Part shown: positions 6,717-9,700 of the stretch, one piece after another
Layout: every line of letters starts with the position of its first letter
Position numbering within the stretch: position 1 is the first letter of the stretch
Assembly (NCBI GenBank): GCA_038049695.1
Contig: CP142451.1
Coordinates: forward strand, 8,740,001-8,804,000
Origin: Cinnamomum chago
Lineage: Eukaryota > Streptophyta > Magnoliopsida > Laurales > Lauraceae
Direction: 5' to 3'
Length of the DNA: 64,000 nt
Translations under genes and position numbers: made by a program
The notes under the pieces: model-generated
The model's database searches: none
Told to the model about the DNA's origin: nothing
The model's input: only the letters and a program-made list of their open reading frames with translations

Positions 6717-9700
6717 TCAAGCCGTGATCAGCTCAGGAACTGTGTTTACTTTATTTCTGTCCATTGAAATGTTGGCGAACTCAGAAAGGATTGCTCTGAA
6801 TTCATCACCCGTGAGCATTTCCTTATCCAACAGCACATCTACTAGCTTGTCAATGGCTGCTCGGTTATTCCTTATATGGGTCTTTGCAATTTCATATGCA
6901 CTGTCTATGATTTTCTTCACTGACTTGTCAATATCTTCTGCAAGTTTTTCTGACATGGAATTCCTTGCTAGCATTCTCAAAAAGACATCACTGCTTTGCA
7001 CTGGTGGATCTGTCAATGCCCATGGTCCAATCTCCGACATCCCAAACATGGTGACCATCTGTTCAGAAAGAGAGGTACAAAGTCATCCATTTGCTTTCAT
7101 GTATTGATAAAAATGCAGAGATCTTCCACAAGAGAGGATATTGCCAACTTTTGTTTTTGAGTATGTAAGTTGCACAACTAACACTGTCTGTGCATTCTTA
7201 GCTCATTAAAAAATAAGCTTTTTAGTAAGTTAGAATTTTTGACGTTTTCTCATTCCTATGATTTTGTGGTCTAAATCATGATTTCTAGTTGTAAATGTGC
7301 CAATTATTTTCACTACCTGATTGTTGTAGAAAGTAATGAAATTTAAATCGCTTTTGTAGAGGGAGCTTCTCTTCCATTCGAAAACCAAAGGAGAAAATGA
7401 CTCAGATAGAAAATGGAGCTGATAATGTAATCTAGAAACTTACCTGTTTTGCTATCTGAGTGATCTGCTGTAGGTCGCCAGCTGCACCAGTTGTAATCTC
7501 TGGTTCTCCAAATATTATTTCCTCTGCTGCTCTGCCCCCAAGACCTCCAACTATTCTTGCAAAAACTTGCTGCTTAGAAACAAGAGCCGGGTCTTCCCCT
7601 GGCATGAACCAGGTAAGACCACGAGCTTGTCCTCGAGGAATGATGGTAACCTTCTGTACTGGGTCATGCCCAGGAGTTAATGTCCTGTAATCAACAGATT
7701 CATCAGTCCTAGTCCATGTGTTTGCTTTTGTACTACATACTTATGCTTGTTGTAGTGGAGTTCAGTATTTACTACCGATACAATTCTCATATCTTCCTAC
7801 ACATTGTCTTTAAAACCTCGAATCAAAAGAATTATTGATATATAAATTGAATTTTTCTATAATACTTACGCACAAACCGCGTGCCCAATCTGATGATAAG
7901 CCACCAGGGTCTTGCTCTTTCCATCTGTCATCTTGGTTCCCTCCATTCCTGCCACGATCCGATCAATAGAATCATCAATTTCTTTCAGTGTTATATTCTC
8001 CTTGCCTCTTCTGCCAGCAAAGATGGCAGCTTCATTCATGAGGTTGGCCAGGTCTGCACCACTGAACCCAGGTGTCCTCATAGCAATACAACTGAGTGAA
8101 ACATCCTTATCAAGCTTCTTGTTTTTGCTGTGAACCTTCAATATTTCTTCTCTCCCTCTTATATCAGGCAACCCAACTGCGACCTGTTTAAGAAACAAGC
8201 AAAAAGCCAAAAACATGCTTTACTTCTTCTTCTTTTTTTTTTTGAAAGGTAAAAACATGCTTTACTTTCTTTTGGAAGAAGGGCAAAACCTCAAGAGTAT
8301 TTCCACTAATCTAAACAAGCATAAAATGATGGGCTTTAATAGTCTACTTCTGGTTCTACAAAGAAAAATCAAGGCATGAATCACAAAAATTATGTAGGAA
8401 AACCTTTGTAAATGTGGCTGTCTTAACCATGTATTTCTGCCATTGTACAGATTAAATCTGGGACGAATATCAGCTCGGTCCAGTGAAAATCAAAATCACG
8501 GTAAAAAAAGACTACATATGTATTGATATTTGTAAAAGCACAGGAAAATACAAAGTCAGCATGCAAAGTGCAGTTATAGCGACCCTTCATCTTATAACAG
8601 TTAAATCAATGTAATACTATCAAAATTGCCAAACGTTTATGGCATAACAATTTTTTTTTTCATTATATCGTATAAGCTCTTGTACGATTTTTCGTTAATA
8701 GGATTCAAGTGGAGTCATCAGCCATTCTTCTCATGATCTTAATTAAATTATAGGATTTGTTTGAAAATGGTACTATTAAAAATATTCATAAATCATAGTT
8801 GTTTTTTTAATGATACAAATAATAATTGTTTCTGTTTACCATGTATGCTTCCATAAGTTGTGATATTAAAGCTGGGACAAATATTAATGCATTTTTGTTC
8901 TCTAAAAGTCAAAATTAGGAAACAGAGATGTCAGATTATTTATATGTTTTGACAACTTATATAAGTAAATCAATGGTGACACCATTAAAAATTGTCAAAA
9001 ACTAATGTCATTGCAACTTTTTTTTTATTGAATCATACAAACTCGTGTTTGATTTTCATTAATAGGACAAGGAAACTTATCAGTTCTTCTTGTGCTAAAT
9101 CATAGGGATTTATTATGTTTAGAAACACTTATTATATAGATGCTACTCATCTAATATTGTTCTACACTTTTAATTATTCGTGTTCCTTTATATACTTTTT
9201 ATACTTCTATTTGTTTGGAAAGATGATTAACTGTACTTACATGCAGGTATATCTTTATTTACTCAGGAGTATCTGCTAGTGACAACAGGACTCATCTCCA
9301 CATCTGAGTTGTAAACAATTGGATTAGTGCAATTTCTTACCTGCCTATCAAACCTTCCCGGCCTAAGTAAAGCTGCATCAAGGATTTCGGGCCGATTAGT
9401 GGCAGCGATGACAATCACTCCACTATTACCACTAAACCCATCCATTTCTGTGAGCAACTGGTTCAGCGTTTGCTCCCTCTCATCATTACCTCCTCCAATT
9501 CCTGTTCCTCTTTGTCTTCCTACTGCATCTATCTCATCAATAAAAACCAGGCATGGAGAATTTGCCTTTGCCTTGTTGAACAAATCTCTCACCCTTGAAG
9601 CTCCTACACCAACAAACATCTCAATGAACTCTGAACCTGACAGAGAAAAGCAAGGGACCCCTGCTTCTCCAGCTATAGCTTTGGCTAACAATGTTTTCCC

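Follow-up and report, generated by a model that had tools for sequence, protein, structure and literature searches.

Does a plant FtsH gene in which the catalytic glutamate of the M41 active site is read as glutamine encode an established pseudoprotease, a protease gene in decay, or an ordinary protease obscured by a wrong or rare base? This question is raised by an FTSH6-like gene in a 64,000-nucleotide stretch of Cinnamomum chago contig CP142451.1 (the window; the contig is referred to as C1). We examined the structure of this gene, its relatives in the whole assembly (1.06 Gb, 14 contigs) and among bacteria, and the published work on related proteins.

Gene structure

The gene lies on the minus strand and encodes an FtsH (FTSH6-like) frame of 672 residues in five exons, with GT/AG introns and zero internal stops (Table 1). 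The predicted protein scored 735 bits against the FtsH family model (FtsH_fam, TIGR01241; cut-off 600) and 219.5 bits against Pfam M41 (cut-off 29.9), also passed the Pfam AAA cut-off, and aligned with the solved FtsH of T. maritima over the whole of its AAA and M41 domains. A first-pass annotation had described five intact exons and intact splice sites, Walker motifs and third zinc ligand, and all of these are present; frame or splice disruption, a hallmark of pseudogenes, is absent from this copy. All zinc ligands are kept as well (i.e., His471, His475 and the distal Asp549). The catalytic Glu of HExGH, a feature of active M41 enzymes, is missing, and reading the joined minus-strand frame confirmed the annotated CAG codon as residue 472, within HQIGH. 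By homology, the protein is thus a member of the FtsH/M41 family that fails the feature defining an active M41 enzyme. The FTSH6 label is tentative, the comparison made here being with an FTSH2/8-like paralogue on contig C4 (64-80% identity per exon block); the window gene appears to be close to, yet distinct from, that paralogue, and the label rests partly on this relation.

Table 1. Coordinates of the FTSH6-like gene, its motifs and flanking features in the window, and of the exons of the copy on contig C5
Feature	Position	Strand	Remarks
Exon 1	10260..10840	-	Start codon, transit region, FtsH extracellular domain, membrane segment
Twin-arginine RRKLLK	residues 43-48	-	Transit region, exon 1
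Exon 2	9341..9881	-	AAA domain with Walker A, pore MFVG, Walker B, SRH
Walker A	residues 250-257		Window protein
Walker B	residues 305-310		Window protein
SRH	residues 354-373		Window protein
Codon TGC, Cys271	9650..9652	-	Second near-invariant residue lost, window copy only
Exon 3	7870..8183	-	AAA lid and start of M41 domain, with HQIGH
HQIGH motif	7881..7895	-	Residues 471-475
Codon CAG, Gln472	7890..7892	-	GAG in C5 copy
Exon 4	7444..7684	-	M41 domain; codon of third ligand Asp549 at 7474-7476
Exon 5	6717..7058	-	C-terminal M41 helices, stop codon
Heat-shock-element-like site GATGCTTCAAGAA	11026..11038	-	Imperfect, three units; one mismatch in nine specified bases
Duplicated block, part in window	1..13491	.	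Part of ~21 kb block duplicated on C5
C5 copy, exon 1	C5:578964-579542	+
C5 copy, exon 2	C5:579921-580461	+
C5 copy, exon 3	C5:581616-581929	+
C5 copy, exon 4	C5:582115-582355	+
C5 copy, exon 5	C5:582741-583082	+

Loss of the catalytic glutamate

Glu occupies column 472 in all 80 of the bacterial proteins compared, which are the best 80 of 574 confirmed FtsH loci in a scan of prokaryote stretches. M41 matches were also obtained at ten or more other loci of the same genome, allowing the comparison with other FTSH genes that the first-pass annotation had proposed: HExGH is present at nine of ten of these loci, the tenth (on contig C7) being uncovered at the motif. Seven of the nine were read directly (including the C5 copy described below) and two by alignment, one across a presumed intron. 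As Glu occupies this position in the 80 bacterial relatives and at nine of the ten other M41 loci, Gln472 is, on this comparison, a derived state, and its departure from Glu is well beyond chance. A degenerate DNA pattern for H[E/Q]-I-G-H matched the window at HQIGH alone, with 0.06 matches expected by chance. The active site is not the only conserved position affected; among the 121 columns that are at least 95% conserved in the 80 bacterial proteins, the window protein departs at three (C271, L305 and Q472) and the C5 copy at one (L305, common to both copies). Column 271 holds Cys in the window protein and Phe in the C5 copy; of the 80 bacterial relatives, 79 have Phe and one has Tyr. In the titles and abstracts of the literature matches listed, no case of natural loss of the catalytic Glu in an FtsH was found; searches for HQIGH, HQxGH and HQAGH motifs matched an unrelated ADAM and nothing on FtsH.

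The Glu of the HExxH motif serves as the general base of M41 proteases (PMC11266112). A human m-AAA subunit engineered with the corresponding change in this motif, AFG3L2 E575Q, is described as proteolytically inactive, and a mixed ring with paraplegin rescues it (PMC3192828); unlike this engineered, mitochondrial change, Gln472 is natural, or is at least found in a natural genome assembly. If the C1 product is made, Q472 would most likely abolish proteolysis, since there would be no general base to activate water at the zinc and hence no cutting of peptides, and the parts of the motor would be present. The proteolytic inactivity proposed in the first-pass annotation is therefore supported by the sequence together with the published account of AFG3L2 E575Q (PMC3192828).

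Comparison with the FtsHi proteins

In Arabidopsis, the Glu persists in FtsHi1, 2 and 4 while zinc-ligand residues are gone, and the losses in FtsHi5 and FtsHi3 go further; the motifs of the FtsHi proteins are TEVGV, NEAAM, REAAV, WAAGR or missing (PMC11266112). The window protein resembles FtsHi1-5 in being an FtsH that is expected to be proteolytically dead and that keeps its AAA domain (PMC8197885, PMC6460958, PMC11266112). It also shares with them an altered HExxH from which proteolysis is not expected, but the other hallmark of the FtsHi proteins, substitution of zinc ligands, is not found here; H471, H475 and D549 remain and only the Glu is changed. The window protein further differs from FtsHi1-5 in belonging to a different subfamily and in the very recent date of its change. 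Membership among the FtsHi proteins was rejected because all three zinc ligands are kept whereas FtsHi proteins lose them, and for the same reason the FtsHi literature lends no support to the earlier proposal of an FtsHi-like state reached independently.

A second copy on contig C5

A fact beyond the first-pass annotation is that a second, near-identical FTSH6 copy is located on the plus strand of contig C5. This copy encodes HEIGH, with the codon GAG; the GAG that the first-pass annotation had named as evidence against its reading is thus found in the C5 copy only, and the window copy reads CAG. Exon 1 of the C5 copy has lost two bases at codon 119, a single AG unit of a repeat, and is frameshifted as a result; the acceptor of its intron 4 is GG, as compared to AG in C1. 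Across the genome, exon 3 is matched twice, i.e., on C1 and on C5, and a third, intact FTSH6 was rejected on this basis. As assembled, the genome is therefore without an intact proteolytic FTSH6: the C1 copy is intact and lacks the catalytic residue, and the C5 copy presents the opposite condition. No FTSH6 pseudogene, gene loss or gene duplication was found among the literature matches listed.

The two genes are part of a duplicated block that starts approx. 7.4 kb left of the window and has a sharp right edge at 13491. C1 and C5 are 94-98% identical in the longer pieces of the block, with a few short pieces lower, and some parts between 1281 and 3589 of the window match C5 poorly or not at all. 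The 2.5 kb right of the edge showed no other match among the matches listed (40 of 1966 candidates scored). Immediately to the left of the block lies a repeat (C1:8730503-8732500) with at least 12 other near-full copies among the matches listed, at 94-98% identity (40 of 456 candidates scored). Given the sharp right edge, the unmatched right flank and the repeat just left of the block, the C1/C5 pair is an inter-chromosomal segmental duplication; that the two sequences are haplotypes of one locus was rejected, because the match to C5 stops abruptly at 13491 and nothing among the matches listed pairs with the 2.5 kb that follow. Several partial copies of the block's left part are arrayed in tandem at C5:590000-640500 (up to about 640 kb).

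The block also includes a PPR-DYW gene (window 3716..5637, plus strand) with a frame broken by one extra base near 3958. On C5 (584165-586087, minus strand), this gene reads through as one open frame of 641 codons, the reverse of the condition of the FTSH6 pair, and the intact PPR gene there hints that C5 carries the parent copy.

Elsewhere in the window, a repeat of approx. 200 bp at 16240-16435 is responsible for the majority of at least 41 other genome matches, which have 76-83% identity (40 of 1966 candidates scored). An open frame at 52091-52954 (plus strand) encodes a glycosyltransferase family 28 N-terminal domain, presumably of the MurG type. Two C2H2 zinc-finger frames are found on the minus strand, one at 31027-31455 that matches a STOP2-like zinc finger and one at 32342-32971 that was read from the list of open frames. 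A retrotransposon gag match at 63117-63650 falls within 62252-63653 (plus strand), near a repetitive low-complexity frame (62252-63145) for which no Pfam match was obtained.

Divergence and selection

Between the coding sequences of C1 and C5 there are 14 nonsynonymous and 6 synonymous base changes (the codon with the indel left out). Omega for the pair was 0.70-0.88, depending on kappa, with 95% limits of 0.28-2.5, an interval with which moderate constraint is compatible. Values of 0.1 (P < 3e-5) and 0.2 (P = 0.0014-0.0064) were rejected for the pair, 0.3 gave P values of 0.019-0.057, and both 0.5 and 1 fit the data. In the introns, 21 of 2099 sites (1.0%) separate the two copies, against 67 of 2595 (2.6%) in the 5' flank, so that coding and intron divergence are alike.

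Changes were polarised with the C4 FTSH2/8-like paralogue as the outgroup. On the window side, the nonsynonymous changes are F271C, V406C (two bases), L429F, E472Q and T640M, and synonymous changes are located at codons 102, 380 and 511; on the C5 side, S78R, E227K and D461E are nonsynonymous and one change, at codon 88, is synonymous. These polarised counts exclude five nonsynonymous (466, 519, 578, 585 and 660) and two synonymous differences that the outgroup placed on neither side. For the window lineage alone (6 nonsynonymous and 3 synonymous base changes), an omega of 0.2 was not rejected (P = 0.05-0.10), and selection on this copy taken alone can be called relaxed only tentatively; we regard the location of the changes, at columns conserved in the bacterial proteins, as weightier than these counts. 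A neutral copy of such age would keep an intact frame with a rough probability of 0.13-0.30, and the open frame in the window is thus weak evidence for selection.

Between 3589 and 13491 of the window, divergence from C5 is uneven: most 500-bp steps of the gene differ by approx. 0.4-1.6%, with higher values of 2.4% at 8000-8500 and 2.4-4.2% at 11000-13000. Gene conversion might be behind this pattern.

FTSH6 and heat memory

FTSH6 of Arabidopsis (AT5G15250) is an M41 protease of the thylakoid that degrades HSP21, lowering its level during heat memory and so contributing to the end of that memory (PMC5007455), and it is described as dispensable in adult plants outdoors (PMC8197885). The window protein resembles it in AAA and M41 architecture, in the twin-arginine transit region and in its closeness to the FTSH2/8 type, but differs in having Gln for the catalytic Glu and in being present here as two recent copies. 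The Arabidopsis accession N13 is a natural FTSH6 null with a one-base deletion at coding position 379 that shifts the frame, and it keeps HSP21 longer and shows strong thermomemory (PMC5007455). Natural loss of FTSH6 by a short deletion is thus common to N13 and to the C5 copy; the difference is that the protein is absent in N13, whereas here one copy has a full frame without the catalytic residue.

The promoter of Arabidopsis FTSH6 is bound by HSFA2 (PMC9578354). In the window, the imperfect heat-shock-element-like site (Table 1) is located 198 bp 5' of the ATG and is the same in the C5 copy, and a second such site, at -411, differs between the copies. Two one-mismatch sites within 600 bp were equalled in 16 of 1000 mononucleotide shuffles, and no perfect three-unit heat element was found in the 2 kb scanned. 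The kept imperfect site weakly suggests that a heat response of the gene may remain.

Interpretation

With moderate confidence, we favor the explanation that catalysis was lost after duplication in a copy under relaxed constraint, which would make this a fading gene rather than an established FtsHi-like pseudoprotease. A thylakoid FTSH6-type gene was duplicated from one chromosome to another along with its neighbours, after which the window copy acquired GAG to CAG at codon 472 as well as other changes at conserved residues, including F271C. Constraint on this copy appears to be relaxed, with Q most likely a step of decay, and the C5 sister has kept the Glu, gained the frameshift and lost the splice acceptor. 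The C1 protein, if made, would be expected to fold, to retain zinc and ATP binding and to assemble into FtsH rings, without cutting peptides. It is the apparently near-neutral divergence of two recent duplicates that favors decay over a maintained pseudoprotease; the C5 lesions, the losses at conserved columns, a coding divergence like that of introns, the broken PPR neighbour and the dispensability reported for Arabidopsis FTSH6 also support decay. The intact frame and splice sites of the window copy, the window-lineage counts, the breadth of the limits on the pair omega, the five unassigned nonsynonymous differences and the kept heat-element-like site count against it.

An assembly error or a single allele (i.e., G as the true or common base, or Q segregating in the sequenced plant) is unlikely, yet of some weight, as a single base decides the matter and reads may be wrongly placed in a region that is a 95-98% duplicate; two other lesions of the block are indels in short repeats, a kind also produced by sequencing errors. 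However, Q is a substitution outside a homopolymer, mixing of reads with the C5 copy would yield G, not C, and the window copy bears other private changes.

Slightly less probable is that the window copy represents the surviving FTSH6, retained as an ATP-driven subunit that engages, e.g., HSP21 or completes mixed thylakoid rings in which proteolysis comes from partner subunits. An open frame with its splice sites, ATPase motifs and zinc ligands all in place would fit such a role, as would the location of the frame and splice lesions in the other copy and the rescue of AFG3L2 E575Q in a mixed ring; in addition, inactivation of the protease of type-B thylakoid FtsH spares PSII repair and inactivation of the ATPase impairs it (PMC9020784). 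Near-neutral divergence, loss of F271 and the changes at other conserved sites argue against retention, and a young copy would in many cases remain intact by chance. The fuller proposal, that FTSH6 proteolysis is wholly lost and that the window copy is kept, dead yet ATP-competent, binding HSP21-like substrates without degrading them or feeding partners and so lengthening thermomemory, we consider doubtful. Retention of weak proteolysis, with another group replacing the Glu, is highly improbable even with the zinc ligands intact, given the inactivity of AFG3L2 E575Q and the lack of any other residue at the Glu column in the 80 bacterial relatives (best 80 of 574).

As assembled, the genome would represent a natural double loss of a step that resets heat memory, with one copy having lost its frame and the other its catalytic residue, and would make it possible to ask if an FtsH subunit that no longer cuts still acts through its ATPase. 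If reads confirm the Q, it would be a natural instance of a Glu-to-Gln substitution that is otherwise made deliberately. Were the dead yet ATP-competent copy indeed kept, a pseudoprotease would have arisen by losing only the general base while the zinc site stayed whole, a route unlike that of the FtsHi proteins.
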